Of a DNA stretch of 47,990 bases, positions 22,314 to 42,992 are shown piece by piece. Location: contig JACRDC010000021.1 of NCBI GenBank assembly GCA_016218705.1, forward strand, positions 1 through 47,990, given 5' to 3'. Numbering within the stretch: the first letter of the stretch is position 1; each line of letters opens with the position of its first letter. The notes below the pieces were generated by a model that saw only the letters and a list, made by a program, of their open reading frames with translations, searched no databases and had not been told where the DNA came from. A program made the translations under genes and the position numbers. The DNA is from Desulfarculus sp. GTDB taxonomy: Bacteria > Desulfobacterota > Desulfarculia > Desulfarculales > Desulfarculaceae.

Positions 22314-25300
22314 TCAAGGCTTCGCCGGTCTTCTCCTTTTACCAGTCTCCGCATAGTCTCCATTGCCAACCAAGCGCACTCGCTCCACCGTGAGCGTGGC
22401 CGCGCCGAAGTTCTCCTCCACCAGCCCCTCCAAGATATAAGGGCGTTGCCAGTCCAGGCCCAGGTGAAAACGGCGGAAGGCCTCGGGGAAGAAGGTGGTC
22501 TCCACCAGCCCGGTTTCGTCTTCGAAGGTCAGGAACTGCATGGGCTCTTCGCTCTTGGTCCACACCGTCTTGCCGGTGAGCAGCCAACCAGCCAGCCGCA
22601 CCCGGCGGCCTACGTACTGGGATAGGTCCCGAGCCTTGACCACGCGCTGGCCCTTTAACGCGCTGGCGAAAAGCTCCATGGGATGGCGGTCCGGCAGGAA
22701 GCCCAGCACTGAGTACTGCCGGCGCAACTCGGCCAGATCGTCGGCTGGGGGGAGGCGGGGCGCGTCCGCTGTTCCCCGCTGGAAAAGCGCGCTCTCCCGG
22801 CGGGCCGCCGCTTCCCGTCGCCGTTGCTGGCCGGCCAGCCGCCAGAGCAACCCAGCCCTGCCCTGCCCCGCCGCCAGGCCGTCCAAGGCCCCGGCGGCGA
22901 TCAAGGCCCGGGCCTCGTCTTCGGCCGGCAGGACGCGCCCGCAAAAATCCTCCATGCTCCCGTAGGGTCCAGCTTGGCGCTCGCCCACGATGCGCTCCAT
23001 GGTCTGCCGCCCCAGGCCGCTGACGGCCATGAGCCCTACTCGTAGCTGGCGGCCCTGGCCGCTCCATGCCGTCAGGCTGGCGTTCACATCCGGGGCCAGC
23101 ACGGTGAGCCCCAGACGGCGCGCCTCGGAGACATAAGCAAAGGTGCTGTAGAAGCCGCCCTGGTTGCTGATGACCGCGGCCATGAACTGGGCCGGATGGT
23201 GGGCCTTGAGATAGGCAGCCTGGAAGCTGACCCGGGCGTAGCTGGCGCTGTGCGGCTTGCAGAAGCTGTAGCCCGCGAAGCTCATCATCATCTCCCAAAT
23301 CTCGGCGATGCGAGCCTCGTCCACGCCCCTCTGCCGCGCCCCAGTCACGAAATCATCGCGATAATCCTTGAGCGCCCGCTCCTTGTCCTTCCAGTTCATG
23401 ACCTTGCGCAGCTTATCGGCCCGGGCGTGGGAGAATCCGGCCAGGGCCACCGCCGCCTGGGAAACGTGCTCCTGGTAAACCATGATGCCGTAGCTCTCGG
23501 CCAGAATCGGCTCCAAGAGGGGGTGGATGGGCTCCCAGGGTTGGCCGTGCAATCGCTTCAGGTACTCCTGGATGTAGGGGTTGGCGGCCGGCCGGATGAT
23601 GCTGCTATGGATCACCATGTGCTCGTAGTCGCCCTGGGCCGCCTTTTGCTGCAACAGCCGCGTGGCCGGGCTCTCAATGTAGAAGCAACCCATGGTCTCG
23701 CCGCGAGCCACTGTGGCTTGGGTGGCCGGGTCGTCCTCGGGCTGCCAGGCGGCCTCGTCAAACTCCTGGCCGCTAACGCGTAGGCTGGCCACGGCGTCGC
23801 GGATTACTCCCAGGCTGCGGTTGCCCAAAAGGTCTATCTTCACCAGTCCCGCCTCCTCGGCCCCCTCCTTTTCCCACTGGATGATGGGCACGCCCTTGGG
23901 CGCGGTCTCCAAGGGCGCGTAGCCGTCGAGGGGGCCAGGGGTGATGACCACCCCGCCCACGTGTACCGAGACATGGCGAGGGGCGCGAACCAGTCCCTGG
24001 GACAGGCGCAATATCTCCGGCCAGGGCGCGGAAAAATCAAGCTTGGCCCCGGGTGGCAAGGCCTGGCGCTTGGGATAGAAGCCGGTGTGCCCCTCCACCG
24101 GTCCCCGCAGCCAGGGCAGCCGCCGGGTGAAGTCCTTGATCTCCCGGGCGGGGATGCCGAAGACCTTGGCCACCTCGCGGATGGCTGAGCGCCCCTGGAA
24201 AGGCACGTGGGTGGCCACCATGGCCGCGCGGCCCTGGTACTGCTCCAGCACCGAGGCTATGACCCCGTCCCGCTCATCCCAGGCGAAGTCGATGTCAATG
24301 TCCGGCGGATCAACGCGGTCGGGGTTGATGAAGCGCTCGAAGTAGAGGTTGTATTTGAGTGGGCAGACGTTGGTGATGCCCAGGCTGTAGGCCACCAGAC
24401 TGGCCGCGCCCGAGCCCCGGCCGCAGATGCGGGGGCTGCGGCCCACGATGTCCTCCACCACCAGAAAGTAGGAGGAGAAGTTCTTGCCGGCGATGACGGC
24501 CAGCTCCCGTTCCAGACGCTCCCGCGCCGCCGCCGGCAAAGGCTGGCCATAGCGCCGCGCCGCCCCTGCAAAGGCCCGCTCCCGCAGGACGGCGTCGGCG
24601 CTGCGGCCCTGGGCATCGCGCCAGGGTGGCATGATGGTCCCCGGCGTGGGGACATACTCCAGGCGCTGGGCCAATTCCCGGACGGCCCGGATGGCTAGGG
24701 GCTGGGTCTCGAAGCGGCGGGCGAACTCAAGCGGTGCCACCGGCCAGGCGTCGGGCGGGGCCAGATCCGAGGCTCCCAGACGCGAGAGGGAGGTGTTAAG
24801 GGCGATGGCTCGCAGCACCCGGTGGCACAGGTAGTCCTCCGGTCCCAGGAAGAAGGTCCCAGCCACCGCCACCAGGGGAGCCCCCAGACGGCGGGCCTCC
24901 TGGCGCAGGCGAAAGCTATGGCCATTGATGCCTCGCGGCAGGGCGGCCAGGGCCGGCACCCCGGCTGCCCGCCAGATGGCCAGGAGATGGGCGCTGGTGG
25001 TGAGCACCACCAGGCCGGGGGAGAACTCCGGCAGGGTCTTTGCCAGGGAAAACCCCGGGGCGCGGTGGCGCCGGGAGATGAGGCGGCAGAGGTTGGCGAA
25101 GCCATGGGCGTTCTCCACCAGGCACAGGGCGCGGCGGGGGGCGGCGGGATCGGTGATCTCCGCGCCCACGATAGCCTGCAAGTTGTGCCGCCGGCAGGCC
25201 CGCAAGAATTCCCACAGCCCGTAAAGGTTGTCGGTGTCGGTCATGGCCAGGCCCTCGTAGCCCAGTTCCGACGCCCGGCGGCACAGGTTCTCCGGCGAGG

Positions 25301-25349
25301 TGGTACCCCACAGTAGGGAGTAGTGGGAGCGCACGCCCAGGGCCAGCAT
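22314..25349 (-). CDS. dnaE2: Error-prone DNA polymerase III alpha subunit DnaE2 (ImuC)
   Basis: 1011 residues, the DnaE2/ImuC length and shorter than replicative DnaE (about 1160). An N-terminal PHP domain (RSHYSLLWGTTSPENL; MTDTDNLYG) leads to the polymerase core, with catalytic aspartates in PDIDIDF near 349-354 and helix-hairpin-helix motifs. The C-terminal OB fold contains VRLAGWLLTGKTVWTK and FLTFEDETGLVETTFFPE. DnaE2 carries out translesion synthesis with ImuB during SOS mutagenesis. It starts one base after the imuB-like stop, so the two form a cassette. No LexA box was recognised upstream of the cassette. Confidence 0.93.
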   Translation of the reverse strand: MLALGVRSHYSLLWGTTSPENLCRRASELGYEGLAMTDTDNLYGLWEFLRACRRHNLQAIVGAEITDPAAPRRALCLVENAHGFANLCRLISRRHRAPGFSLAKTLPEFSPGLVVLTTSAHLLAIWRAAGVPALAALPRGINGHSFRLRQEARRLGAPLVAVAGTFFLGPEDYLCHRVLRAIALNTSLSRLGASDLAPPDAWPVAPLEFARRFETQPLAIRAVRELAQRLEYVPTPGTIMPPWRDAQGRSADAVLRERAFAGAARRYGQPLPAAARERLERELAVIAGKNFSSYFLVVEDIVGRSPRICGRGSGAASLVAYSLGITNVCPLKYNLYFERFINPDRVDPPDIDIDFAWDERDGVIASVLEQYQGRAAMVATHVPFQGRSAIREVAKVFGIPAREIKDFTRRLPWLRGPVEGHTGFYPKRQALPPGAKLDFSAPWPEILRLSQGLVRAPRHVSVHVGGVVITPGPLDGYAPLETAPKGVPIIQWEKEGAEEAGLVKIDLLGNRSLGVIRDAVASLRVSGQEFDEAAWQPEDDPATQATVARGETMGCFYIESPATRLLQQKAAQGDYEHMVIHSSIIRPAANPYIQEYLKRLHGQPWEPIHPLLEPILAESYGIMVYQEHVSQAAVALAGFSHARADKLRKVMNWKDKERALKDYRDDFVTGARQRGVDEARIAEIWEMMMSFAGYSFCKPHSASYARVSFQAAYLKAHHPAQFMAAVISNQGGFYSTFAYVSEARRLGLTVLAPDVNASLTAWSGQGRQLRVGLMAVSGLGRQTMERIVGERQAGPYGSMEDFCGRVLPAEDEARALIAAGALDGLAAGQGRAGLLWRLAGQQRRREAAARRESALFQRGTADAPRLPPADDLAELRRQYSVLGFLPDRHPMELFASALKGQRVVKARDLSQYVGRRVRLAGWLLTGKTVWTKSEEPMQFLTFEDETGLVETTFFPEAFRRFHLGLDWQRPYILEGLVEENFGAATLTVERVRLVGNGDYAETGKRRRPAKP

Positions 25350-25350: not shown

Positions 25351-26529
25351 TCACTGCCCCAGGGCGCGGCCCAGCCGAATCATCTCTGAGCCATGGCGGC
25401 CGCGGATGCGGTCTAGGGCCTGCACCAGGCTCTCTTGCCGGGCTTGGCGCGCCTGGGAGGGGCCTGACAAGAGGGGCAAGTCCATCTGGGCGGGTGGGAA
25501 CGCCAACCGATCGCTGACCAGCCGCAGATGGCTGAGCCGCACCCGCCGGGTCCAGGCAGCGGCCAAGGCCTGGCGCGCCATATCGAAAAGAAGAAAATCG
25601 TTGGCTGTGCCCTGGGCATGGCCGCGCTGACGGGTTGTGCGCATGCCATCGCTGTAGTGGAGGGTAAGGCTTATCCGCCGGGCCACCCGGCCCATCCCCC
25701 TGAGCCGCCGCCCAACGCCCTCGGCCAGGAGAAAGATGGCCCTGTCCACCTGAGCCACGTCGTTGGTGTCACCGGCGAACTGGCGCTCCACCACCACCCG
25801 CTGGGAACCGCTGCCAGCAGCCATCACCGGGCTGTTGTCCACCCCCCGCAGCAGCCGGTGGAAGTGGTCTCCCCGCCTGGCAAAGACCACCTCCAGCTGC
25901 TCGGGTGTCCACAAAGCGGCTTGGCCCACCCGACGCAGGTGGAAGCTTGCCAGGGTGAGAAGGTCTTCCCGCTCCAAGCCGGGCAGCAGATGCAAAGGCA
26001 AGGGGCGCAGAAAGGCTTCCTCCGCCCCAGAGGGGACGACGTGCTCGCCATCGGGCTTGACCACCCGGGTGGCGATTTTGGCCACCAGCTTGTTGACGGC
26101 CAGGCCCCAGATGGGCTGGAGACCCAGGCGGGCCTTGGCCTCCCGGCGGATGCGCCAGGCCACGTCTCGGGCCGGCCCCCACAGCCTGCCGGTGCCGGTG
26201 AGGTCGAGAAAGATATGGCCGCTGTGTTCGTCGCCCTCGACGAGAGGTGAATAAGGCAGAGCCAGGCGGAACATCTCGCTCATGGCCCGTTCATAGAGCT
26301 GGGGCCGGGGCGGCAGCAGCCGGGCCTCCCGGCATAGCTTGCGGGCGCGCTCCAGGATCATGCCCTTGCGTACGCCGGCCCGGTAGGCTTCCTCGCTCAT
26401 GTCATAAACCAAGGACCGTCCGCCGGGCGGGGCCACGATCACGGGCCGGTCGTGCAACCCGGCCTGTTCCTGGCGCTCCACGGCCACGGCGAAGTCTGCC
26501 ACGTTGAGATGCACGATGCTGCGTTCCAT
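25351..26529 (-). CDS. ImuB-like catalytically inactive Y-family polymerase
   Basis: 392 residues, aligned along the DinB/Pol IV fold (palm, thumb HhH region LPLHLLPGLEREDLL, little finger). All three catalytic carboxylates are replaced. The first pair in Pol IV (HVDMDCFF) reads HLNVADF here, and the SLDEAYLD site aligns with HSGHIFLD. A beta-clamp binding motif, QMDLPLL at 348-354, is present. Dead Y-family proteins with a clamp motif beside dnaE2 are ImuB, the hub that brings DnaE2 to the clamp. At 392 residues it is shorter than many ImuB proteins. No imuA gene is next to it. It could be annotated as Pol IV by similarity, but activity is not expected. Confidence 0.85.
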   Translation of the reverse strand: MERSIVHLNVADFAVAVERQEQAGLHDRPVIVAPPGGRSLVYDMSEEAYRAGVRKGMILERARKLCREARLLPPRPQLYERAMSEMFRLALPYSPLVEGDEHSGHIFLDLTGTGRLWGPARDVAWRIRREAKARLGLQPIWGLAVNKLVAKIATRVVKPDGEHVVPSGAEEAFLRPLPLHLLPGLEREDLLTLASFHLRRVGQAALWTPEQLEVVFARRGDHFHRLLRGVDNSPVMAAGSGSQRVVVERQFAGDTNDVAQVDRAIFLLAEGVGRRLRGMGRVARRISLTLHYSDGMRTTRQRGHAQGTANDFLLFDMARQALAAAWTRRVRLSHLRLVSDRLAFPPAQMDLPLLSGPSQARQARQESLVQALDRIRGRHGSEMIRLGRALGQ

Positions 26530-26598: not shown

Positions 26599-26640
26599 AG
26601 TCAACAACTCCCCGTTCCTGAGGGGCGGGGTGCGGTGACT
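26599..26640. repeat. Nested imperfect palindrome upstream of the tRNA fragment
   Basis: Outer arms AGTCA (26599-26603) and TGACT (26636-26640) enclose inner arms CCCCG (26610-26614) and CGGGG (26626-26630). The 42-base unit could form a two-step hairpin. Such structures occur at IS200/IS605-type ends and at att regions, but no transposase is nearby. Role unknown. Confidence 0.35.
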
Positions 26641-26694
26641 CGCTTCTGTTTCTCTGGGATGGTGTCTACGGTTTTATTGCTGGGCGTTTTAGCC

Positions 26695-26737
26695 GTTAAC
26701 CACCCTGTCGCTGGTTCGAGTCCGGCCAGGTGAGCCA
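26695..26737 (+). pseudogene. 3' fragment of tRNA-Asn (anticodon to CCA)
   Basis: The 43 bases fit tRNA positions 34-76 exactly. The anticodon GTT and AA are followed by a 5-base 3' anticodon strand (CCACC), variable loop CTGTC, a T arm GCTGG-TTCGAGT-CCGGC that pairs with one G-U, the 3' acceptor strand CAGGTGA, discriminator G and encoded CCA. Upstream there is no D arm, no TCACCTG 5' acceptor strand, and the base before the anticodon is C rather than the universal U33. The homology therefore begins at the anticodon, as left at the far end of an element integrated into a tRNA gene. Confidence 0.75.
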
Positions 26738-26748
26738 AATAAAACAAT

Positions 26749-26780
26749 GGCTTAGGTGGAAACGCCTAGGCCCTTTTTCT
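26749..26780 (+). terminator. Rho-independent terminator after the tRNA-Asn fragment
   Basis: Arms GGCTTAGGTG (26749-26758) and CGCCTAGGCC (26763-26772) pair over 10 positions, with wobbles, around a GAAA tetraloop. A CTTTTTCT run follows. It lies 12 bases past the CCA, so it is probably the native terminator of the original tRNA gene. Confidence 0.8.
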
Positions 26781-26863
26781 TTGCTGGGCACCCCGGGCGG
26801 CCAAAGCGGCGCCGGCCTGCGTTGGGCATAGACCCGGCCCGCTCCGGCCCAGGCAGGTTCGGG

Positions 26864-26898
26864 TTGTGTTTTGTTCAACCCAAGGTATAGGCTAAACA
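26864..26898 (+). promoter_or_regulatory. Candidate promoter of the cytochrome oxidase operon
   Basis: Two overlapping sigma-70-like pairs are visible, both with 16-base spacers: TTGTGT (26864) with TATAGG (26886), and TTGTTC (26871) with TAAACA (26893). They lie 50-85 bases above the first start codon. Matches are partial, so this is only a candidate. Confidence 0.25.
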
Positions 26899-26949
26899 AC
26901 AGCAAGCGCTAATTGGGGGCACGCCCCATTCCGCTAGGGGGTCTGCATT

Positions 26950-27258
26950 ATGGGTTTGATGCGCACGCTTATTATGTGCCTGGTATTGGCCCTGGCCTGC
27001 CCGCTGGCCGCTCCGGCGGCCGACGCCAAGGCGCTTTACGCCAGGTGCGCCGGCTGCCATGGCGCCGATGGCGGCAAGACGGCCCTGGGGGTGGGCAAGC
27101 CGCTCAAGGGCATGTCTGCCCAGGAGGTGGCCCGTTATCTGCAGGGCTACAAGGCCAAGGCCATCGGCGGCCCCCAGAAGGCCATCATGGAGGCGCAGGC
27201 CGCCCTCTTGTCCGACCAGGACATCCAGGCCCTGGCCGCCCTCATCTCCCAGTTCTGA
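26950..27258 (+). CDS. Small secreted cytochrome c (class I, c553-like)
   Basis: 102 residues. Sec signal peptide to about residue 24 (CLVLALACPLAAPAAD). A single heme-binding motif CAGCH and a candidate axial methionine in LKGMSAQEVARYL are present. Helices run to the end (LLSDQDIQALAALI). It is a periplasmic electron carrier, probably donating to the caa3 oxidase whose genes follow directly. AGGGGG lies 8 bases before the ATG. The stop overlaps the SCO start (TGATG), so translation is coupled. Confidence 0.92.
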   Translation: MGLMRTLIMCLVLALACPLAAPAADAKALYARCAGCHGADGGKTALGVGKPLKGMSAQEVARYLQGYKAKAIGGPQKAIMEAQAALLSDQDIQALAALISQF

Positions 27259-28079
27259 TGCGCCCCCTGGGGCACTTGGCGCTCCTGCTGGCCTGGCTTT
27301 GTTGCTGGTCCACGGCGACCCTGGCCCATGAAGAGCGCCCCACCGGCGCGGCCCCCAGCGTGGGCGTGGCGGAGCGGCTGGGCCAGTACATACCAGAGGA
27401 CGTGGTGCTGGCCGACGAGGAGGGCCGTCCCCTGAACCTGCGCCAGATACTGACCCTGCCCACCATCCTGGTGCCGGTGTATTACTCCTGCCCAAACGCC
27501 TGCAACCTGCTGCTGGGGCGGCTGGCGCAGGTGTTGCCCCAGGTGGGCCTGCAAGCGGGACGCGATTACCAGGTGGTGACCGTGAGCTTCGATGAGCGCG
27601 AGACACCAGACCTGGCCCGGCGCAAGCACCATGACTTCAGCACGGCCCTGGCCGGCGGCTTCCCGCCCCAGCACTGGCATTTCCTCACCGGCGGCCAAGA
27701 TGCCATCGCCAAGCTGATGGAGGCCATTGGCTTTGGCTTCCAGCGCCAGGGCGACGGCTTCCAGCACCCCATGGTGCTGGTGGCCCTGTCGCCCTCGGGC
27801 AAAATCACGCGCTACCTATACGGTGGCTCGCCGCTGGCCTTTGACATCGCCATGGCCGCCGTGGAGGCCGCCGGCGACCGTCCCGGCCTGTCGGTGACGC
27901 GCGCCCTGGCCTTCTGCTACACCTATGACCCCCAGGGGCAGCGCTACGTCTTCAACCTGATGCGCGTGGCCGGCGCGGCGGTGCTGCTAGGGATACTGCT
28001 CTTCGTGGTCTTCCTGTGGGTTGGGGGCCGCCGGCGCCGGCGGCGCCAGGCCGCCAACCACAAGCGGAGCACCCCATGA
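27258..28079 (+). CDS. SCO1/SenC family copper chaperone with a C-terminal membrane anchor
   Basis: 273 residues. A signal peptide (about 1-23) leads into a thioredoxin-like SCO domain. The copper ligands are the C78-P-N-A-C82 pair and His170 (GFQHPMVLVALSP). A C-terminal hydrophobic segment (AGAAVLLGILLFVVFLWVGG) and an Arg/Lys-rich tail anchor it. Most SCO proteins carry an N-terminal anchor instead. SCO proteins load CuA of cytochrome oxidase subunit II, encoded four genes downstream. I chose the ATG at 27258 because it overlaps the cytochrome stop and starts the signal peptide; the frame is open much further upstream, but only as overlap. Confidence 0.9.
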   Translation: MRPLGHLALLLAWLCCWSTATLAHEERPTGAAPSVGVAERLGQYIPEDVVLADEEGRPLNLRQILTLPTILVPVYYSCPNACNLLLGRLAQVLPQVGLQAGRDYQVVTVSFDERETPDLARRKHHDFSTALAGGFPPQHWHFLTGGQDAIAKLMEAIGFGFQRQGDGFQHPMVLVALSPSGKITRYLYGGSPLAFDIAMAAVEAAGDRPGLSVTRALAFCYTYDPQGQRYVFNLMRVAGAAVLLGILLFVVFLWVGGRRRRRRQAANHKRSTP

Positions 28080-29710
28080 ACCCCGCCGGCCACCCGGACG
28101 CGGCGGACGACCGCGGCTTCCTGGCGCCGCCCGGGGGCAGGCGGGGCTTAGGCTCCTGGGTCTTCAGCACCGACCACAAGCGCATCGGCCTCTTGTACCT
28201 GGGGTGCATCCTGGCCCTGTTTCTGGCCGGGGCGCTATTGGGCCTGGCCATGCGGCTCAAGCTCATGACCCCAGGCAACGAGTTGTTGGCCGCCCAGACC
28301 TACAACGCCGTCTTCACCCTGCACGGGGTGATAATGATCTTCCTGGTGCTCATCCCCAGCATCCCGGCCTCCTTCGGCAACTTCCTGCTGCCCCTGCACA
28401 TCGGGGCCAACGACGTGGCCTTCCCCCGCCTGAACCTCCTGTCCTGGTGGCTCTACCTGGCGGGCGCCCTGGTGGCTTTTGTGTCCATTTTCAGCGGCTC
28501 GGGCGCGCCCGACACCGGCTGGACCTTCTACGTGCCCTTCAGCCAGCGCACCACCACCAACGTCTCGGTGGCCGTGCTGGCGGTCTTCATCCTGGGCTTC
28601 TCCTCCATCCTCACCGGACTCAACTTCGTCACCACCATCCACCAACTGCGCGCCCCGGGCCTGACCTGGCGGCGGCTGTCGCTCTTTGTGTGGTCGCTCT
28701 ACGCCACGGCCTGGATCCAGGTGCTGGCCACGCCCATCCTGGGCATCACCGCGCTACTTATCTTCTCTGAACGCGTGCTGAACCTGGGGCTTTTCGACGC
28801 CAGCCGAGGCGGCGACCCCCTGCTCTACCAGCACCTGTTCTGGATCTACTCCCACCCGGCGGTATACATCATGATCCTGCCGGCCATGGGCGTGGTCTCG
28901 GACATCATCCCGGTCTTCGCCCGCAAGCGCATCTTCGGCTACAAGATGATCGCCTTCTCCAGCCTGGCCATCGCCTCCGTGGGCTCCCTGGTCTGGGCGC
29001 ACCATATGTTCACCAGCGGCATGAGCGACCTGGCGGTGCTGGTCTTCTCCTTCCTGACCTTCATCGTGGCCGTGCCCAGCGCCATCAAGGTCTTCAACTG
29101 GCTCTCCACCCTGTACAAGGGCTCCATCAGCCTGGAGCCGCCCTTGCTCTACACCCTGGGCTTCATCTGGATGTTCTCGGTGGGGGGGCTATCGGGCCTG
29201 GCCCAGGGCGCCGCCGGCGCCAACATCCACGTGCACGACACCTATTTCGTGGTGGCCCATTTCCACTACGTGATCTTCGGCGGCACCGGCCTGGGCCTGT
29301 TCGCGGCCCTGCACTTCTGGCTGCCCAAGATGTTCGGCCGCATGTACAACCGGCGCCGGGCCCTGGCCGCCTTCTGGGTCATCCTGGCCGGCATGAACCT
29401 GCTCTACTTCCCCATGTTCATCCTGGGCCTGATGGGCATGCCCCGGCGCTACTACGACTACCTGCCACAATTCGCCACGGGCCAGTTCATGTCCACCGTG
29501 GGCTCCTGGATACTGGCCCTGGGGCTCTTGCTCATGTTCCATAACCTCTACGCCGGCCTCAGGCGTGGGCCACTGGCCGGCCCCAACCCCTGGGGCGCCG
29601 CCACCCTGGAGTGGACCCTGCCTTCGCCGCCGCCCCGCGAAAACTTCGCCCAGGAGCCGGTGGTGCATAAGGGACCCTACGACTTCCCCCGGCAGGGCGG
29701 CCATGCCTGA
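28076..29710 (+). CDS. ctaD: Cytochrome c oxidase subunit I (A2-type heme-copper oxidase)
   Basis: 544 residues with 12 predicted membrane helices. Heme and copper ligands are all present: His83 and His397 (low-spin heme), His395 (heme a3), and His260, His309 and His310 (CuB). Tyr264 is the CuB-linked tyrosine. Where A1 oxidases have GHPEVY with the proton-carrying Glu, this has Y258-S259-H-P-A-V-Y, the YS motif of A2-type oxidases. K-channel Lys338 (SAIKVF) and D-channel Asp113 (GANDVAFPR) are present. The ATG overlaps the SCO stop as ATGA. It forms the catalytic core of the caa3 complex. Confidence 0.96.
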   Translation: MNPAGHPDAADDRGFLAPPGGRRGLGSWVFSTDHKRIGLLYLGCILALFLAGALLGLAMRLKLMTPGNELLAAQTYNAVFTLHGVIMIFLVLIPSIPASFGNFLLPLHIGANDVAFPRLNLLSWWLYLAGALVAFVSIFSGSGAPDTGWTFYVPFSQRTTTNVSVAVLAVFILGFSSILTGLNFVTTIHQLRAPGLTWRRLSLFVWSLYATAWIQVLATPILGITALLIFSERVLNLGLFDASRGGDPLLYQHLFWIYSHPAVYIMILPAMGVVSDIIPVFARKRIFGYKMIAFSSLAIASVGSLVWAHHMFTSGMSDLAVLVFSFLTFIVAVPSAIKVFNWLSTLYKGSISLEPPLLYTLGFIWMFSVGGLSGLAQGAAGANIHVHDTYFVVAHFHYVIFGGTGLGLFAALHFWLPKMFGRMYNRRRALAAFWVILAGMNLLYFPMFILGLMGMPRRYYDYLPQFATGQFMSTVGSWILALGLLLMFHNLYAGLRRGPLAGPNPWGAATLEWTLPSPPPRENFAQEPVVHKGPYDFPRQGGHA

Positions 29711-30302
29711 GCCCCGCCGGGACCAGGCCGGCGCCAAGCTGGGCATGTGGCTGTTTCTGTACAGCGAGATGGTGCTCTTCGGTGGTTTGTTCCTGCTGTA
29801 TGCCGCCTACCTGCACCGCTATCAACCGGAGTTCCACCGCGCGGCCCAGGGCCTGGACGCCCTGCTGGGCGGCATCAACACCGTCGTCCTCATCACCAGC
29901 AGCCTTTTCATGGCCTTGTCGCTCACCGCCCTGCAAACGGGCCAGCCGGGTCGCTGCCTGGGGATGTTGGCCCTCACCGTGCTCCTGGGTGCAAGCTTTC
30001 TGGTCAACAAGGCCCTGGAGTGGGGCGAGAAATTCCAACACGGCATCTATCCCGGCTCACCGGGCGTGCTGGCCCTGCCCCCGGGCGAGGGCACCTTTTA
30101 CAGCCTGTATTTCGCCCTGACTGGCCTGCACGGCCTGCACGTGCTGGTGGGCGTGGTTCTCCTGGGCGTGGTCATGCTCATGCTGTGGCGCGGCCGCCTG
30201 CGCCAGGACCACCCGGCCCTGTTGGAGAACGCCGGCCTGTACTGGCACCTGGTGGACCTGATCTGGTTATTCTTGTTCCCGCTCTTCTACCTGATAACCT
30301 GA
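29703..30302 (+). CDS. ctaE: Cytochrome c oxidase subunit III
   Basis: 199 residues with five membrane helices, the short bacterial form. Conserved blocks are KLGMWLFLYSEMVLFGGLFLLY, EFHRA, NTVVLITSSLFM, FYSLYFALTGLHGLHVLVG and the closing YWHLVDLIWLFLFPLFYL. It stabilises subunit I and its lipid/oxygen pathway. I chose the ATG at 29703, which overlaps the ctaD stop by 8 bases and starts the homology; the longer upstream frame lies entirely within ctaD. Confidence 0.94.
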   Translation: MPEPRRDQAGAKLGMWLFLYSEMVLFGGLFLLYAAYLHRYQPEFHRAAQGLDALLGGINTVVLITSSLFMALSLTALQTGQPGRCLGMLALTVLLGASFLVNKALEWGEKFQHGIYPGSPGVLALPPGEGTFYSLYFALTGLHGLHVLVGVVLLGVVMLMLWRGRLRQDHPALLENAGLYWHLVDLIWLFLFPLFYLIT

Positions 30303-30323
30303 AGCTCGCCCGGAGGGCCGCGC

Positions 30324-30635
30324 ATGGACCCAGGGGACAACCAGCCCGCCCCCCGTATCCTGAGCAGCCGCCTGCTGACGGCGGTCTGGGCGGCCCTGGC
30401 CTGCCTGACCGGCCTGACCATGCTGCTGGCCAGCATTGACCTGGGTTTCTACAACGTCCTGGCCGCCCTGGCCATCGCCACGGCCAAGGCCCTGCTGGTC
30501 ATCGCCTTCTTCATGCACCTGAAATACGAAGGGCGTCTGCTGAAGGGGCTTTTGTTCCTGGCCTTCGTGCTGCTGGCCATCTTCATCGGCCTGACCTTCC
30601 TGGACCTGGCCTTCCGCGCGCCGGGGCAGTCATGA
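30324..30635 (+). CDS. ctaF: Cytochrome c oxidase subunit IV (prokaryotic type)
   Basis: 103 residues with three hydrophobic segments. The block NVLAALAIATAKALLVIAFFMHLKYEGR is diagnostic for the COX4_pro/CyoD-like family (A.a.K..lV..fFMHl). It is a small accessory membrane subunit of the oxidase. GGAGG lies 8 bases before the ATG, 21 bases after ctaE. Its stop overlaps the ctaC start as ATGA. Confidence 0.9.
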   Translation: MDPGDNQPAPRILSSRLLTAVWAALACLTGLTMLLASIDLGFYNVLAALAIATAKALLVIAFFMHLKYEGRLLKGLLFLAFVLLAIFIGLTFLDLAFRAPGQS

Positions 30636-31543
30636 CCCCCCAGGCGGTAAACGCGGTGGCCAGCGTGGACCGCGCCTTTTTGTTCATCTTCGGGGTCTCG
30701 GCGGCCATGCTGGTGCTCATCACCCTGGCCACCATCTATTTCGTCATCCGCTACAGCCGCCAGCGCCACCCCGTGCCGGCCGACTTTGACCACAACCTGC
30801 TGGCCGAGATCATCTGGACGGTCATCCCCACCCTGCTGGTGCTAGCCATGTTCTACTACGGCTGGCAGAGCTTCAGCGCCCTGCGCGGCATGCCCGAGGG
30901 GGCCATGGAGGTGAAGGTCTTGGCCCGCCAGTGGTCCTGGTCCTTCACCTACCCCAATGGCCGCCAGAGCCCTGAGCTGTACGTGCCCGTGGGCCAGCCG
31001 GTCAGGCTGGCCATAACCTCCACCGATGTGATCCACGGCTTCTACGTGCCGGCCTTCCGGGTCAAGATTGACGCCGTGCCGGGCATGACCACCCAGGCCT
31101 GGCTGCGGGCCGACCAGCCTGGCGACTACGACATATACTGCTCGGTGTACTGCGGCCTGGAGCACGCCAGGATGCTCTCGCGGGTGCGCGCCGTCAGTCC
31201 CCAGGAGTTCGAGCGCTGGCTGGTCCAGGCCCCGGACCAGGATGGAGAGGCCATCGCCCGGCGGGAGGGCTGTCTGGCCTGCCACTCCACGGACGGCAGC
31301 ATCCTGGTGGGTCCCAGCTTCAAGGGCCTCTTCGGACACCAGACCACGGTGCTGGACCAGGGCCGGCCGGTACAGGTCATGGTGGACGCCGAATTCGTCC
31401 GGCAGGTGCTGGCCGACCCTTCCCGCCGCCCCACCCAGGGCTTCCCGCCGGTGATGCCGGCTTATCCCCATATCACCCCGGAGCAGACCGCCGCCCTGGT
31501 GGAATACCTCAAGGCCCTGGGCCAAGAGGAGCACCAACATTGA
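30632..31543 (+). CDS. ctaC: Cytochrome c oxidase subunit II with fused cytochrome c (caa3 type)
   Basis: 303 residues. Two membrane helices (about 15-40 and 55-78) are followed by the CuA cupredoxin domain, with His135, Cys170, Cys174, His178 and Met181 as ligands (C-SVY-C-GLE-H-AR-M). The C-terminal cytochrome c domain has heme motif C214-LA-CH and candidate axial Met275 (PPVMPAYPH). The fused heme domain marks a caa3 oxidase that accepts electrons from a small cytochrome c such as the one encoded at 26950. There is no cleavable signal; the first helix acts as anchor. Confidence 0.96.
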   Translation: MTPQAVNAVASVDRAFLFIFGVSAAMLVLITLATIYFVIRYSRQRHPVPADFDHNLLAEIIWTVIPTLLVLAMFYYGWQSFSALRGMPEGAMEVKVLARQWSWSFTYPNGRQSPELYVPVGQPVRLAITSTDVIHGFYVPAFRVKIDAVPGMTTQAWLRADQPGDYDIYCSVYCGLEHARMLSRVRAVSPQEFERWLVQAPDQDGEAIARREGCLACHSTDGSILVGPSFKGLFGHQTTVLDQGRPVQVMVDAEFVRQVLADPSRRPTQGFPPVMPAYPHITPEQTAALVEYLKALGQEEHQH

Positions 31544-32382
31544 TCGCCGACCTGGCCAGGCTGACGCGGGCGCGGCTGGGGCTCATGGCCGCCGCCGGGG
31601 CCATGGCCGGTTACCTGCTCTGGCGGCCTCGGCCCAGCCTAGGCCTGCTGCTTACGGCGCTGGGGGCCTGGCTGCTGGCCGCGGGCTGCTCGGCCCTCAA
31701 CCAGACGCAGGAGCGCCGCCGGGACGGGGTCATGGCGCGCACCCGCCAACGGCCCCTGCCGGCTGGCCGCCTGGGCCTGGGTCCGGCCCTGGCCCTGGCC
31801 CTGGCCTGCCTGGCCCTGGCCCTGTCCCTGCTCTGGGCCGTGGGCGGGGTAGGGACGTCGCTGCTGGGCCTGGCGGTGGTGGCCCTCTACAATGGCCTTT
31901 ACACCCCCCTCAAGGGCCGTACGCCCTTTGCCCTGCTGCTGGGGGCCGTGGCAGGGGCCTTGCCGCCACTGTTGGGTTGGCTGGCCGCCGGCGGGCCGCT
32001 CCTGGGCCATCGCGCGCTCCTGGTGGCCGGGGTATTCTACTGCTGGCAGGTGCCCCACTTCGCCCTACTGGCCAGACTGCGCGCCGACGACTACCAGGCC
32101 GCCGGCCTGCCCCTGGCGGGCCTGGCGCTAAGCGGGGGCTGGGGACGCTGGCCGCTGTTGGTCTGGCTGATGGCCTACGGCACGGCCCTGGCCCTGGTGC
32201 CGGCCCTGGGCCTGGTGGCCACGCCGGCGGCCAAGATATGCCTGGCCACCCTGGCCCTGGGCCTGGGGCTGGGCGGGGCCTGGGCCTTGCGCCGGGAGCG
32301 GCTGGGGCTGTGCCTGGTCAACACCTCCCTGGCCCTGTTCCTGGCCTGCCTCATGGCCGACGCCCTCTGGCGGGGGATTTGA
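31540..32382 (+). CDS. ctaB: Heme O synthase (protoheme IX farnesyltransferase)
   Basis: 280 residues, about eight membrane helices. The UbiA-family prenyl-diphosphate motif is N-x3-E-x3-D (NQTQERRRDGVMARTRQRPL), typical of CtaB/CyoE. The second signature is YNGLYTPLKGRTPF. It farnesylates heme B to heme O for the a-type oxidase. The start is a TTG that overlaps the ctaC stop (TTGA), with AGAGGAG upstream. It ends the operon. Heme A synthase (ctaA) is not in the window. Confidence 0.93.
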   Translation: MIADLARLTRARLGLMAAAGAMAGYLLWRPRPSLGLLLTALGAWLLAAGCSALNQTQERRRDGVMARTRQRPLPAGRLGLGPALALALACLALALSLLWAVGGVGTSLLGLAVVALYNGLYTPLKGRTPFALLLGAVAGALPPLLGWLAAGGPLLGHRALLVAGVFYCWQVPHFALLARLRADDYQAAGLPLAGLALSGGWGRWPLLVWLMAYGTALALVPALGLVATPAAKICLATLALGLGLGGAWALRRERLGLCLVNTSLALFLACLMADALWRGI

Positions 32383-32417
32383 GGCCAACGGGCCTGGCCG
32401 CGCCTGGGTTCGCGCTC

Positions 32418-33098
32418 CTAGCGGCGGTCGGGGTCGTGGCTGAGCCGGTGCAGGATGAAGGGCCGGGGATGGATGGGCACCCCGTCGGGGGACGGCGGGA
32501 AGATGGGCGTGAGCCGCAGGGTGTTGTCGCCCACGAACTCGTAGCGCATGACGTTGCCGCCAAAGGCCTGGCTCAGGCCGGTGAGGTCGAAGTCCATCTC
32601 GCCCACGAACACGCCATTGACGCTGAAGCCCTCCACAAAGAAGTTGCTGAAGTCAGGATTGCGGGAGGTTTCCAATATTCGCTCGCCGGCCCGCACCGTC
32701 AGGGGGGCCGAATAGCTGCCCGAGTACAGGAACACCACCGTATCGGACCTGGTGCCCCTGGCCCGCTGCCTCTTTATGGTCACGGTTGTGCCCGCCACCG
32801 AGTGTTCCATGGCGTGCAGGCGGGGGTCGCCGGTGGTGCGGAACCCATAGATCATGCTGCCGTGGATACTCAGGCAGTGGCCGCCAATCGGCTCCAACAC
32901 CGAGGTCAGGTAATCGCGCATGCTGTCCATGTCGGCGCGCCATTGCCCGCTGAGCCGGTCGCCCGGCTGCACGGCCCGCGGGCCGTCGGCCCGGGCCTGT
33001 CCCGGCCCGACCAGGACCAAGGCCAGCAACGCCAGCGCCAGCATAACCCTCAGCCACCCCCGGCCCCGTCCGCACAGTCTCAGACATTCGCCCGTCAT
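32418..33098 (-). CDS. Secreted protein of unknown function
   Basis: 226 residues I do not recognise. Signal peptide: an Arg-rich start, hydrophobic VMLALALLALVLVG, and a likely cleavage after ARADG. The mature part has few cysteines and appears to be mostly beta strand (SGSYSAPLTVRAGERILETS; NGVFVGEMDFDLTG). No catalytic motif is obvious. GGAG precedes the ATG. It starts 23 bases after the diguanylate cyclase gene and is co-directional, so the two are likely co-transcribed. A periplasmic effector or sensor linked to c-di-GMP signalling is only a guess. Confidence 0.75.
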   Translation of the reverse strand: MTGECLRLCGRGRGWLRVMLALALLALVLVGPGQARADGPRAVQPGDRLSGQWRADMDSMRDYLTSVLEPIGGHCLSIHGSMIYGFRTTGDPRLHAMEHSVAGTTVTIKRQRARGTRSDTVVFLYSGSYSAPLTVRAGERILETSRNPDFSNFFVEGFSVNGVFVGEMDFDLTGLSQAFGGNVMRYEFVGDNTLRLTPIFPPSPDGVPIHPRPFILHRLSHDPDRR

Positions 33099-33121
33099 GG
33101 TCGTTATCTCCAGTTGGTTGC

Positions 33122-34120
33122 TTAACCCACCGAACCCTTGCCGTGGCGCTTGACGCTGAACATGGCCTGGTCGGCCAGGGCCAAGAGCCCGCGCAGGTCA
33201 GAGGCGTCCTGGGGAAAGGCCGCCACCCCCAGGCTGGCTTGCAAACTCACTTCCAGGCCTCGGTTGACCAGGTAGGCGGTGGCGCACAGGCATTGATTGA
33301 TCTCGCGGGCCTTGTCCAGGGCCTGCTGCCGGCTGGCCCCGGGCAACACCACCACGAACTCGTCGCCGCCATAGCTGACTCCGTAGGCCGGCTCGGCCAG
33401 ACAACCGCGGATGGTCTGGGCCACCTCCTGCAAGACCTGGCTGCCCATGAGGTGGCCGTGGGTGTCCACCACCCGCTTGAAGTCGTCCAGGTCCAGAAAT
33501 ATCAGGGCAAAGGGCCGGCCGGCGGACACCAGCTCCTGCAGGGATTGATACATGTGGCGGGTGTTGTATAGGCCCGTGAGGTCGTCGTGGATGGACAGGT
33601 CGTGGATGCGCTGATAGCGCCTGGCGTTCTCGGCGGCGATGGCCACGAAGTCGGCCACGGTGTTCAGAAGCTCCTTGACCGCCTCGTCCATGCGGTGGGG
33701 ATTGACCACCTCGATGGCCCCCAGGGCCTTGCCCGCGAAGACCAGCGGAGCGCACATGATGGATTGGGTGCGAAAACCCGCCATCTGGTCCACCTGGGGG
33801 AAGAAGCACTGGCAACGGCTCACGTCCTGCACCACCAGGGTCTTCTGTTGCAGCACCGCCTGTCCGGCCACGCCCTGGCCCACCTCCAGGCGAATGTCCT
33901 TGACCAGCTCCCGGTCCAGGCCCACGGTCACCTCGAAGCGCAACTGGTTGGTCTGGTCGTCAAGAAGCAGCAGCGACCAGTTGTCGGCCGGCAAAAGGGC
34001 CGAGACCCTGTCCAAGAGGGCCGCCAACAGGCGCGGCGGCTCCAGTTGGGAGGTGAGTGCCTTGCCCAGCTCCAGGCAGGCCCAAAGCTCTTTTCTTGAC
34101 AACTGCTCCGAGGATGTCAT
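33122..34120 (-). CDS. GAF-GGDEF diguanylate cyclase
   Basis: 332 residues. GAF domain at about 25-165 (AGFRTQSIMCAPLVFAGKALGAIEVVN), then a GGDEF domain (about 178-332). The linker DDLTGLYN, metal Asp210 and the active-site GGDEF (251-255) are intact, so c-di-GMP synthesis is likely. The inhibitory RxxD motif expected five residues before GGDEF is absent (AEPA), so product feedback is not expected. No membrane segment; cytoplasmic. I chose the ATG at 34120 because AAGGAG stands 7 bases before it. The upstream ATG at 34138 has no such site. Confidence 0.92.
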   Translation of the reverse strand: MTSSEQLSRKELWACLELGKALTSQLEPPRLLAALLDRVSALLPADNWSLLLLDDQTNQLRFEVTVGLDRELVKDIRLEVGQGVAGQAVLQQKTLVVQDVSRCQCFFPQVDQMAGFRTQSIMCAPLVFAGKALGAIEVVNPHRMDEAVKELLNTVADFVAIAAENARRYQRIHDLSIHDDLTGLYNTRHMYQSLQELVSAGRPFALIFLDLDDFKRVVDTHGHLMGSQVLQEVAQTIRGCLAEPAYGVSYGGDEFVVVLPGASRQQALDKAREINQCLCATAYLVNRGLEVSLQASLGVAAFPQDASDLRGLLALADQAMFSVKRHGKGSVG

Positions 34121-34153
34121 TGCCCGCTCCTTGCCCAACCTTAATGGGCAAAA

Positions 34154-34238
34154 GGCGGGCGGGGATAAACCCCGCCCCTACGAAAACCGAAACAACAACC
34201 AGCATTTTCTTTGTAGGGGATGGGTTAATCCCCGCCCG
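34154..34238. repeat. Paired palindromic repeat (two inverted copies)
   Basis: Copy 1 (34157-34177) is GGGCGGGG-ATAAA-CCCCGCCC. Copy 2 (34213-34237) is an inverted, slightly diverged version: GTAGGGG..., then an ATCCCCGCCC arm. The two face each other and can form one long hairpin as well as two short ones. A third copy stands at 42993. It lies between the acyl-CoA synthetase-like gene and the diguanylate cyclase. It looks like a REP or MITE-type dispersed element. Confidence 0.7.
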
Positions 34239-34310
34239 TGCATTTCTCAAAATGCGATACGGTTGAAATCCAATCGGTATCAAACATCATCATAGCATGC
34301 TCGCGGAGAA

Positions 34311-36056
34311 TCAAGACGGCTGGGTCACCTCGGAGGTCCAGTCCTCCTGCAAGCTCTCGAAGCCGCCCACGGGCAGGCCCAGCTCGCGGGCCTTGAGCAC
34401 CCGCCGCAGGAGCCGGCGATTGGCGTTGCGCGGCAGCTCGGGCAGGAACTCCACCTCGCTCAAGGGCAGGTCCGGGGATATCTCGGCCCGGGCCAGGGCC
34501 TTGAGCACCTCCTTGAGTTCCCACACGCCCTTGTGCCCCTGGCGCAGCACCACGAAGGCCTTGAACCAGGGCGCGCCCTCGGTGGGGGGCAGGATCACCG
34601 CGCACTCGGCCACTCCGGGGTGGTGGCTAAGGGCGCGCTCCACCTCGTAGGGACCCACCAAGCGGCCACGCACCCGCAGGATGTCGTCCTTGCGGCCATG
34701 CAGGTAGTAATAGCCGTCCTCGTCGGTGGTGGCCAGGTCGCCACTCAGGTACCAGCCCTCGCGGAAGAAGCCCTCCTCGCGGCCGGCCTCGCCCCACAGA
34801 CCCGAGAACATGGCCGGCCAGCCGGGCTGGAAGGCCAACTCACCCAGGGTCAAGAGGGGCTGGCTCTGGCCCTGACCATCCACCACCGCCGCCTGGATGC
34901 CCGGCACCGGCAGCCCGGCCGAGCCCAGCTTGATGTCGGTGCCGGGGAAGTGGGCCAGGGCGATCATGCCCATCTCGGCGCTCCACCAGGTATCGTGGAT
35001 GTGGCGGTTGAAGTTGTTGCGGAACCAGAAGAAGTTCTTGGGCGGCAGGGACCGGCCCACGGTGGCCACGTGCCCCAGGCCGGTGAGATTGTAGCGCTTG
35101 ACCAGGTCGTCGCCGGCCTGCTTGAGCAACTCGATCACTCCGGGGCGGGTGTACCAGGTGGTGGGGCGGTGGCGCTCCAGGGCGCGGTACCAGGCGGCTG
35201 GGCTGAACTCATCGCCGATCAAGAGCACCGCCGAGCCGCAGAGCCAGGGCGCCAGCCCGCCGTAGACCGTGGAGGTAACCCAGCCGGGCAGGCCGTCGGT
35301 CCAGCACAGGCTGCCCGGCCCCAGGTCCAGCACGTAGCGGCCGGTCATCATCAGGCCCACCATGCCGCCGTGCACGTGCACGGCCCCCCTGGGCGGGCCG
35401 TCGCCGCCGGAGGTGAAGACCAGGTACAGGGGATGGCTGGCCCCCACCCAGTGGGTGGCGAACTCCGTGGGCTGGGCCGGCAGCAGCCGGGTGGCCAGAT
35501 CCTCCCGGTGGTGCAGGCCGGGCAACTTGCCCTCGGTGAGTAAGAGTACCGCCTCGTAGGGCAGGGCCTCGCCCGGCAGCCGCCGGGCCAGCCAGGGGGT
35601 GGTCACCAGGACCTTGGGGTCCACCCGGGCCATGAGGCGGTAAAGCTCGTGGGGCGTGAGGTCGGGCGGCAGGGCGCAGAAGACGGCCCCCAGGCGGGCG
35701 GCGGCCAGCACCGCCAGGTGCAGTTCAGGACGCGGAGGCATGAGCACGGCCAGGCGGTCGCCGGCGGTGAGGCCCAGGCCGGCCAGCATGTTGGCCCACT
35801 GGCACGACAGCTCCTTGACCTGCCGGAAGGTGTAGGAGCTGACCTCGCCGTGGCGCTCGTAGATCAGGGCGGTCTGGTCGGGCATCTGGCCGGGTTCGGC
35901 CCAGCGGTCTATGGCCTCCTGCACCAGGTTGTATTGGCCGGTGTGCTGCCAGGTGAACTCCTGGAAGAGCTTCTCCCAGCGAAAATTGATGTAGGCCTCC
36001 TGATAGGAGCCCAGGCGGGAGGTGCGCTCCTCGGCGCGAATGCGGGTGCGTATCAC
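34311..36056 (-). CDS. Acetyl-CoA-synthetase-like AMP-forming protein lacking the catalytic lysine
   Basis: 581 residues of the ANL (AMP-binding) superfamily, closest in style to acetyl-CoA synthetase: DTWWSAEMGM (A5) and GWYLSGDLATTDEDGYYYLHGRKDDIL (A7/A8). Two core motifs are changed. The P-loop motif, normally SGSTGKPKG, is SGGDGPPRG. The A10 motif, normally LPKTRSGK, is LPRNANRR with Arg at about 548 in place of the essential, acetylatable lysine. Adenylation may therefore be weak or lost. I chose the GTG at 36056: it overlaps the deacetylase stop (GTGA) and has GGGAGG 6 bases upstream. An ATG at 36074 is the alternative. It is coupled to an HDAC-family gene. A structural or thioesterification-only role is possible. 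Confidence 0.85.
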   Translation of the reverse strand: MIRTRIRAEERTSRLGSYQEAYINFRWEKLFQEFTWQHTGQYNLVQEAIDRWAEPGQMPDQTALIYERHGEVSSYTFRQVKELSCQWANMLAGLGLTAGDRLAVLMPPRPELHLAVLAAARLGAVFCALPPDLTPHELYRLMARVDPKVLVTTPWLARRLPGEALPYEAVLLLTEGKLPGLHHREDLATRLLPAQPTEFATHWVGASHPLYLVFTSGGDGPPRGAVHVHGGMVGLMMTGRYVLDLGPGSLCWTDGLPGWVTSTVYGGLAPWLCGSAVLLIGDEFSPAAWYRALERHRPTTWYTRPGVIELLKQAGDDLVKRYNLTGLGHVATVGRSLPPKNFFWFRNNFNRHIHDTWWSAEMGMIALAHFPGTDIKLGSAGLPVPGIQAAVVDGQGQSQPLLTLGELAFQPGWPAMFSGLWGEAGREEGFFREGWYLSGDLATTDEDGYYYLHGRKDDILRVRGRLVGPYEVERALSHHPGVAECAVILPPTEGAPWFKAFVVLRQGHKGVWELKEVLKALARAEISPDLPLSEVEFLPELPRNANRRLLRRVLKARELGLPVGGFESLQEDWTSEVTQPS

Positions 36057-37102
36057 ATCATGCCTCCCATCCACACGCCGTAGGGACCGTGGATATGGCG
36101 GGCCTTGTTGGCCAGGGCCCGGCCCCGGAAGCTGTCGGCCTGGGCCAGGATGTCCTCGCCATAACCTGGGTTGAGCAGCGCCAGCAGGCTCTGGCGCACC
36201 GAGGACGTGAGCGCCTCGTGGCTGTAACCGCCCTCCAGGGCCAGCAAGAGCGGTATGCCCTTGGCTGGCCCCAGGCGGCGCACCAGGCTTCCTAAGCCGG
36301 CAAAGGCCCTCTCGGTGAGCTGGGTGTTGCCCAGGGGGTCGTCCTTGTGGGCATCATAGCCGGCGGCCACCATTATCAGTTGCGGATCATAGCCCTCCAC
36401 CACCTGGGGCAGTATCTCGCGGTAGAGGTGCAGCACGTCGTCGTCGCCGGCGTCGCCGGGCAGGCACAGGTTCAGCGTGTAGCCCGCGCCGCCGCCCAGG
36501 CCCACCTCCTCCCAGTCGCCGCTGTGGGGGTAGGCCTGGTAGTAGTGTGAGGAAAGGTAGAAGACCTCCCGCTCGCGGTAGAAGGCCTCCTGAATGCCGT
36601 TGCCGTGGTGCACGTCCCAGTCAATGATGAGGATGCGCTTCAGCCCAAAGGCCCGCCGCGCCCAGCGGGCGGTGATGGCCAGGTTGTTGAAGATGCAGAA
36701 GCCGCCGGCCTGGCCGGAGAGGGCATGGTGCCCGGGCGGGCGCACCAGGGCCAAGCACATGGCGCACTGGCCGGCCATGAGCGCCTCCAGGGCCTTGAGG
36801 CAGCCGCCCGCGGCCAGCCAGGCGGCCTGGCAGGAATGAGCGCTGGAGGGGGTGTCGGAGGTGAGGTTGGTGAAGGCCCGCCGGGCCGTGGAGAGCACCA
36901 ACTGCACATAGGCCGGCGAGTGCACCAGCTCGATCTGCTCCAGGCTGGCGGGCGTGGGCGCCAGGGCCAAGAACCGGCCGCCGAACTCCTGGTCCAGCAT
37001 CTGGTACAGGCTGGTCAGGCGTCCCGGGTCCTCGGGATGGCCCAGGCCGGTCTTGTGCTCCAGATATTCGGGGTCACGCACGATGCCCAGACTTAGGTCC
37101 AT
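36053..37102 (-). CDS. HDAC-family (AcuC-like) zinc deacetylase
   Basis: 349 residues of the arginase/deacetylase fold. Active-site residues are all seen: tandem His125-His126 (RPPGHHA), zinc ligands Asp163 and His165 (DWDVHHGNG), Asp250 (GYDAHKDDP) and Tyr293 (LEGGYS). Family members remove acetyl groups from lysines of acetyl-CoA synthetase (AcuC) or from polyamines and other small molecules. The neighbour's stop/start overlap suggests a shared function. I chose the ATG at 37102, preceded by AGGGGGGG; the extension to 37207 is unconserved. The exact substrate is unknown. Confidence 0.92.
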
Positions 37103-37442
37103 GGCCCCCCCTGCGTTGTGTTGCCCACAGGCGTTACTGTGTGAAGATGGTGGCACAACCCGCCCCAACCTGGCAAGCCCGGTTTGCCATGGTGTTTTGG
37201 TGGCCAAGCCTCGCGGATACTTCGGCGGGCCAGCGCCATGGGGGGGCCGGGTGCCGCCTGGGCTATGGCCCGGGCTAGCCGCCTTTGTTATGATGCTAGG
37301 GAGTCACGGGGCCGGCCCAGGCCCCGGACGTCATCATTTGTCTGTGCCAAAGGGCTTCCACGGGCGCCTGTGGCGCACAAGCCAGAGGGGGACGCCAACC
37401 GACCCGTCAATGCATGTCCGGGCGCCGGGCAAGGAGAGCAAC
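37103..37442. other. Divergent intergenic region between deacetylase and phosphoglucomutase genes
   Basis: About 340 high-GC bases. It must hold both divergent promoters. The only candidate noticed is a TATGAT (37289-37294) that could serve as a -10 for the phosphoglucomutase, but no -35 match accompanies it. Ribosome sites AGGGGGGG (left, minus strand) and AAGGAG (right) end the region. No RNA gene or repeat is seen. Confidence 0.4.
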
Positions 37443-39098: not shown

Positions 39099-39120
39099 GG
39101 AAAGGAATGGCCCTGGCCTT

Positions 39121-39187
39121 GGGCCTGGCGGCCAGGCCCGGCCAACACCGCGGGCCTGGGCGAAAGTTTTTCCTCCGCCCAGGCCCG
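39121..39187. terminator. Two hairpins between convergent pgm and receiver genes
   Basis: Hairpin 1 is GGGCCTGG-CGG-CCAGGCCC (39121-39139). Hairpin 2 has perfect 12-base arms CGGGCCTGGGCG (39151-39162) and its complement (39176-39187), with a loop containing GTTTTTCC. The position between convergent stops suggests bidirectional termination. A classical downstream T-run is lacking. Confidence 0.6.
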
Positions 39188-39204
39188 GCCGGATCAATTC
39201 TCGT

Positions 39205-39591: not shown

Positions 39592-39744
39592 GCCAACCCC
39601 CTCCTAGATCAGTGATCGGGTTATGGTGCCTTTGCATTTGAGCATAGCAATCTAATAGGACAACTGTCAATAAAGCTCACCATTGCTGGCCCCGTCATCA
39701 AGAGATATGGCCCCGCGCTCCAACCATCAGCGGCATTGTGAATA

Positions 39745-39762
39745 CTACCAGCGGTATGGTAG
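39745..39762. promoter_or_regulatory. Short dyad in the divergent receiver/kinase intergenic region
   Basis: CTACCA (39745-39750) and TGGTAG (39757-39762) form a perfect 6-base inverted repeat with a 6-base spacer. It sits in the 277-base divergent region, 107 bases above the kinase start, next to a TTGACA-like box at 39767. It could be an operator. Evidence is limited to the symmetry. Confidence 0.3.
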
Positions 39763-39868
39763 GGTGTTGACACGGGGTTCCCCCGCTCGACCGCGCCCGC
39801 GCCCGAGGCCGGCTTTGGCCCGCACTGGTCTTACCTGCATCGCGCCCTGCACTCCAGGGGGATGAGCC

Positions 39869-41497: not shown

Positions 41498-41501
41498 TAG
41501 C

Positions 41502-42974: not shown

Positions 42975-42992
42975 TATGGGCCTGAAGGAGAA

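Follow-up and report, generated by a model that had tools for sequence, protein, structure and literature searches.

The stretch of Desulfarculus sp. DNA analysed here (the window, 47,990 nucleotides; its positions carry the prefix W where needed) holds a piece of a tRNA-Asn(GTT) gene between imuB and a cytochrome c oxidase operon (Table 1), and the question arises how a partial tRNA gene came to lie there. A preliminary description, made from the sequence alone, had read the piece as the far end of an element integrated into the tRNA gene, with the island to its left. This reading is largely borne out by G013, the nearest relative compared, in which a tRNA-Asn gene and the right flank of the window share one contig; the DNA to the right of the fragment is core, and that to the left is not. 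We consider it very probable that a composite genomic island occupies the tRNA-Asn(GTT) gene, that the fragment is the attachment-site scar at its right-hand end, and that the intact gene on contig C104 carries a 3′ half supplied by the element. Throughout, G000 is the window's own genome, G001 onward are relatives, and C denotes a contig.

Table 1. Features of the window that bear on the tRNA-Asn fragment
Feature	Position	Strand	Basis
IS transposase gene 3′ end, probable	1..139	+	92% to G013:C115, 91% to G016:C169 over 87 bases; IS reading by eye
Right-hand part of the very probable island, open at the contig end	1..26694		No more than weak or short matches in G013, G014, G015
dnaE2 / imuC, error-prone polymerase	22314..25349	-	Pfam; 88% nucleotide identity to the G017 gene abutting tRNA-Asn
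Period-11 direct repeat AGTCTCCGCATAGTCTCC in the dnaE2 3′ end, integrase arm-type-like site	22344..22361	+	Repeat scan; G017 comparison
imuB (Y-family polymerase-like), right-most gene of the very probable island	25351..26529	-	Pfam IMS, IMS_C
Probably displaced tRNA-Asn(GTT) 3′ half, positions 34-76, attR-type scar	26695..26737	+	Sequence; alignments to intact tRNA-Asn genes
Hairpin and T-run, terminator	26749..26779	+	Fold analysis; 86% G014 tRNA-Asn alignment spans the terminator
Core chromosome right of the very probable island, cytochrome c oxidase operon first	26829..46000		G013 matches; Pfam COX1, COX2

The tRNA-Asn fragment and its terminator

The preliminary description had reported 43 bases of a tRNA-Asn gene, from the anticodon to CCA, followed by a terminator, and this is what the sequence gives: window positions 26695-26737 run from the anticodon GTT through the CCA at the end of the gene, and a hairpin with a T-run follows. 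An intact tRNA in the window can be rejected, as neither ARAGORN nor Rfam finds one. ARAGORN returned no complete tRNA anywhere in the window, and Rfam returned no tRNA match there at the gathering score and none within 26500-26850 even at E values up to 10; we therefore treat 26695-26737 as a fragment.

The fragment aligns with the intact tRNA-Asn gene of its own genome (G000:C104:8228-8303, locus L019) at E=3.8e-8. The match of the fragment region to the intact tRNA-Asn gene and terminator of G014 has E=5.5e-23, with 86% identity over query positions 163-254, and continues through the terminator downstream of the window fragment. The hairpin, at about 26749-26772, is itself of ordinary stability (fold z only -1.3; 19 of 200 shuffles were as good), and similar hairpins lie 3′ of the own tRNA-Ala(GGC) and tRNA-Phe genes and of the G014 tRNA-Asn gene. 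These likenesses suggest that the terminator at 26749-26779 probably belonged to the original tRNA-Asn gene.

No other copy of the fragment with at most three mismatches occurs elsewhere in the own genome. Its anticodon-arm core, allowing one mismatch, is found at three genome sites, namely the intact gene, the window fragment, and a fragment on contig C79. The window fragment has two acceptor-stem changes relative to the genes of the relatives, as might befit a stray tRNA-Asn pseudogene with no tie to integration. However, the gene content shifts between core and variable at the fragment, and the right flank adjoins an intact tRNA-Asn gene in G013; we give the pseudogene reading practically no credence. 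The palindrome at 26599, which had been proposed as part of the element's end, did not hold up: the hairpin there (26610-26630, 9-bp stem) is unexceptional (z -1.6; 11 of 200 shuffles as good), and by this shuffle test we rejected it as a significant element end.

The intact tRNA-Asn gene and its 3′ half

The own genome (4.21 Mb in 126 contigs, 99% complete) gave 40 tRNA matches. The loci of the 30 best were typed by ARAGORN, the ten lower-scoring ones being left out, and a single tRNA-Asn(GTT) was found among them, the gene at C104:8228-8303. The genome thus contains an intact cognate gene that shares the crossover region with the fragment. The first 16 bases of the fragment are identical to the corresponding bases of this gene, and 34 of 43 agree overall.

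A family search with a 371-base query matched 17 of 20 genomes, the own included, although some of these matches were to other tRNAs or unrelated DNA. The 3′ halves of 14 intact tRNA-Asn genes from 13 genomes were compared, the remaining 7 of the 20 genomes being left out. The fragment agrees at 41 of its 43 positions with the genes of G014, G017, and G018 and with both copies in G012, at 40 with that of G002, at 38 with those of G009 and G001, at 36 with those of G004, G005, G006, and G007, and at 34 with those of G000 and G013. Among the 13 genomes compared, the variant 3′ half of the own gene is common only to G013. As the fragment matches the relatives at 41 of 43 positions and its own gene at only 34, it is probably the original 3′ end, now displaced, and the gene in G000 and G013 probably carries a replaced 3′ half. 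An intact gene with an identical 3′ half, as had been expected, is therefore not what the own genome contains; the identity closest to this expectation, 41 of 43, is found in genes of other relatives. A different 3′ sequence had been named as grounds for giving up the integration reading, and formally the own gene has one, but a replaced 3′ half accounts for it. A compensatory change after integration was also considered for the T4-A69 pair and rejected, as T4 is already paired with G69 in G017 and G018.

From the intact gene, C104 continues for 15.3 kb to the contig end, and this DNA is unlike the right flank in G013. It encodes an IS3-type transposase (Pfam rve and HTH_21), HmaA, a SoFic-type Fic protein, HmaB, HmaC (635 of 1110 residues scanned), and a phage terminase GpA. 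The Hma defence genes lie at L062:10234-20000 and on into L063, with the SoFic-type Fic gene between HmaA and HmaB. Two CRISPR-like repeats with one spacer were also seen at L062:8521-8606, about 220 bases downstream of the tRNA-Asn gene.

Flanking DNA in the relatives

The right flank of the fragment is core chromosome. Six long pieces at 90-94% identity connect W26700-46000 to G013 (85% complete), covering 17,954 of 19,301 bases, and the core DNA starts 92 bases after the window fragment. The order on the 12.5-kb G013 contig C151 is lepB, tRNA-Asn (7887-7962), about 1.1 kb of other DNA, and then, from 9064, the right flank, which corresponds to the window from W26829.

The left side behaves differently. 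In the searches of the relatives the best 40 first-look candidates per genome were scored, among which a long 90% match would lead. W9500-26690 has 13 weak matches in G013, the best by E-value being 70% over 378 bases and none exceeding 79% over shorter stretches, and the sole match of W1-9500 there is a 139-base stretch at the contig end. Only weak matches were found in G014 (70% complete) and G015 (54% complete), and G017 (71% complete) has, on another contig, 259 bases at 87% to W19125-19383. The segments W22040-22340 and W26530-26694 had no match at E 1e-3 in the other loci compared. On this same side, the minus strand encodes at 219-9455 a protein of 3078 amino acids with GH94 and glucoamylase domains, presumably of the cyclic beta-glucan synthase kind.

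The own tRNA-Asn gene has the same left-hand gene order as the G013 gene (tblastn). Own contig C104 and G013 are 94.75% identical over 362 bases, which comprise the end of the left flank, the tRNA, and the terminator, and they diverge just past the terminator (L064:8059; C104:8400). The swapped 3′ half and terminator are thus the same in both genomes. Because the G013 gene shares them, G013 is more likely to have lost the island by deletion than to represent a site that was never used; C151 would then be a relative's version of this site that lacks the island, probably as a result of deletion. To the left of the cytochrome operon G016 and G017 have different neighbours again, without a tRNA. 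The preliminary description had held that synteny kept across this point by every relative would speak against an island; the relatives do not show this.

A chromosomal rearrangement might instead have placed native DNA beside a tRNA-Asn remnant, with no island on the left. In the own genome the intact gene and the fragment do lie on different contigs, in orientations that match the G013 order. The G+C content of the left side is mostly that of the rest (0.61-0.70 outside 13-17 kb), its Mla, BON, and PAS genes are of kinds usual in chromosomes, and the 259-base match in G017 shows that some of it occurs elsewhere in a relative. However, searches of the incomplete genomes G013, G014, and G015 recovered none of the left DNA beyond matches of this short or weak kind, and phage, IS, and defence genes come after the intact tRNA. 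We consider a rearrangement improbable and an island in the tRNA-Asn gene the better account of both flanks.

Signs of integration at tRNA genes

Direct repeats of period 11, with at least 7 exact bases and at most 160 bases downstream of the tRNA, follow 12 of 52 tRNA genes; upstream there are 0 of 52, and base shuffles give 0.9%. Repeats of period 10 and 12 have no such enrichment (3 and 2 downstream, 2 and 2 upstream, in the same 52). This sample is non-random, as 32 of the genes come from the own genome and the rest from the fragment search; tRNA-Phe is counted for two genomes, and one downstream stretch is only 51 bases long. By analogy to lambda-type integrases, we take these repeats to be putative tandem arm-type sites of tyrosine recombinases. 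The repeat after the own intact tRNA-Asn gene falls just under the 7-base criterion. It stands in the register of the tRNA-Thr repeat (+104), with 16 of 18 bases alike, a likeness reached in 0 of 5000 base shuffles, and it shares its form with the repeat at +104 after the tRNA-Asn gene of G002.

In two relatives the whole arrangement can be seen. On one contig of G004, 24.5 kb are bounded by an intact tRNA-Asn gene (2590212) and a fragment (2614771), with an integrase domain at 2613498-2613986; in G002 the intact gene (475918-475993) and the fragment (440079) bound 35.8 kb, and integrase-domain pieces lie at 440264-440860. The integrase domain lies within about 0.8 kb of the fragment in both. 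Since intact gene, fragment, and integrase domain occur together in G004 and G002, the sequences indicate that the tRNA-Asn gene serves as a site of integration in further genera of the family.

The preliminary description had also predicted an intact tRNA-Asn(GTT) gene in the genome and a tyrosine recombinase nearby. The gene is there, but no PF00589 integrase was found on C104 or C107; nine hits lie on other contigs of the own genome, and the middle of the island is unassembled. With the integrase of the G004 island as query, C104 and C107 again gave no convincing match. The island would measure at least 15.3 + 26.7 kb, compared with 2-200 kb in the Islander filter.

Fragments of one tRNA beside another tRNA are recurrent in these genomes. 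A second, more decayed tRNA-Asn 3′ fragment lies at G000:C79:27755-27797 on the minus strand (L006), some 190 bases 3′ of tRNA-Phe. It is accompanied by a hairpin resembling a terminator and by an imperfect period-11 repeat, and it agrees with the window fragment at 34 of 43 positions. Its ortholog at G013:C210 is better preserved, and past this point the DNA is different. In turn, a 3′ fragment of tRNA-Phe, together with a terminator and the repeat GCATCCATATGGCATCC, is found at about G000:C1:40372-40416 (L052:1495-1539), some 200 bases downstream of tRNA-Leu(CAA). Pairing of the window fragment with the C79 fragment was rejected, as G013 has the right flank beside tRNA-Asn and the tRNA-Phe copy separately.

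The copies on C79 and C210 do bear on a further reading, by which the window fragment would be an element's own attachment core, of the left-end type, as seems to be the case beside tRNA-Phe; in both, a tRNA-Asn fragment is accompanied by a terminator-like hairpin and a period-11 repeat, the latter imperfect on C79. After the window fragment, however, there is no 7-base period-11 repeat; the G+C-rich DNA there shows only a period-10 repeat of 6 bases, and the start of core DNA is only 92 bases away. We judge this reading very improbable and retain that of a right-hand scar.

The mutasome genes and the end of dnaE2

The gene next to the fragment, imuB, has IMS domains and adjoins a DnaE-type polymerase gene, the arrangement expected of an ImuB-DnaE2 mutasome. 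In G017 a dnaE2 gene (88%) comes directly after tRNA-Asn. G017 and the window have DNA in common from W22337, within the T-run after the G017 tRNA terminator, up to the dnaE2 start; imuB is not adjacent in G017, which speaks against a fixed imuB-dnaE2 module. The window DNA left of W22337 is not tRNA; if an edge once lay here, it has since been rearranged.

In G017, AGTCTCCGCATAGTCTCC is a period-11 repeat 47 bases past the CCA of the intact tRNA-Asn gene; in the whole window it is one of only two period-11 repeats that reach 7 bases, and it encodes the DnaE2 end GDYAETG. An end of this type is absent from the 59 DnaE2 tails shown, which all come from 80 genome-contig loci, a few of the tails being cut at contig ends; 25 short loci of the family, processed in the same way, contributed no tail. 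A 35-base stretch at the dnaE2 end is identical in G000 and G017, as against 88% for the whole gene; of 21 genomes from this order, 2 contain it.

DnaE2 is 89% identical to that of G017, as compared with 81% for COX1; for G016 the values are 72.5% and 82%. As LepB of G017 also reaches 88%, however, the kinship of the mutasome is suggestive only as a sign of transfer. The mutasome of G016 (97% complete), at 73%, lies elsewhere, 9.6 kb right of the cytochrome operon match. Among the best 80 of 103 ImuB loci in genome contigs the top identity was 54%, mostly to Desulfobacterota-type metagenome-assembled genomes and to no close relative; the best named hit, at 54%, hints at a Desulfarculaceae-like lineage. 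ImuB-like matches occur in 367 of 72,556 plasmid records, all below 60% identity; of the eight listed, several bear the annotation DNA polymerase IV.

These observations leave room for a tentative idea, to which we assign less than an even chance: dnaE2-imuB could be a small mobile module of tRNA-Asn elements, with its left edge at an arm-type site absorbed into the dnaE2 coding end (GDYAETG) and its right edge at the tRNA-Asn fragment, 165 bases from imuB. The polymerase gene would then double as an attachment-site arm and move between species at tRNA-Asn.

Proposed history and comparison with known systems

We propose that a tyrosine recombinase would have joined element and chromosome within the anticodon arm of the tRNA-Asn gene. 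The element would have supplied a new 3′ half and so restored a functional tRNA gene, the one at G000:C104:8228-8303. The original 3′ half, together with its terminator, would have been pushed to the far end, where imuB now lies on one side of it and the cytochrome c oxidase operon on the other. The DNA of C104 and C107 would form one continuous island, in which several elements may have accreted, with the mutasome genes as the right-most module.

The finding marks where acquired DNA ends in a lineage about which little is known; no paper on genomic islands in Desulfarculaceae was found in the literature searched. It indicates error-prone polymerase genes as island cargo, and mutability may thus come and go along with mobile elements. 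At the 3′ end of dnaE2, the repeat resembling an arm-type site suggests a way for a cargo gene to weld to an attachment site.

The proposed insertion is a tRNA island of familiar type, and its unusual detail is the repeat at the dnaE2 tail. In the portion of the Islander paper available to us, islands in tRNA genes are mapped by an intact gene at one end and a 3′ fragment at the other, the anticodon loop is among the usual crossover sites, and tandem arrays are known (PMC4383910). The proposed island would be alike in its two ends and in an anticodon-loop crossover. However, Islander, as described there, requires an internal integrase and a single replicon (PMC4383910), whereas here the middle is unassembled and C104 and C107 show no integrase; the two 3′ halves also differ at 9 of 43 positions. 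A difference of three bases is given for the presumed attP versus the attB used by ICEPni2 of Pseudomonas nitroreducens, an element integrated at tRNA-Gly that, in the sections of the report available, carries imuA-imuB-imuC(dnaE2) near one end (PMC7466150). Both would be tRNA-integrated elements with a mutasome cassette close to one end. In contrast to that transferable ICE at tRNA-Gly, the probable island described here uses tRNA-Asn, has imuB and dnaE2 without a recognised imuA, and shows no conjugation genes among the subset of its proteins that was scanned. It is established, according to the available part of a further report, that plasmids carry imuABC cassettes (PMC4151985); those cassettes and the one described here are alike as mobile error-prone polymerase cassettes, the former borne on plasmids and the latter very probably on an island in a tRNA gene.
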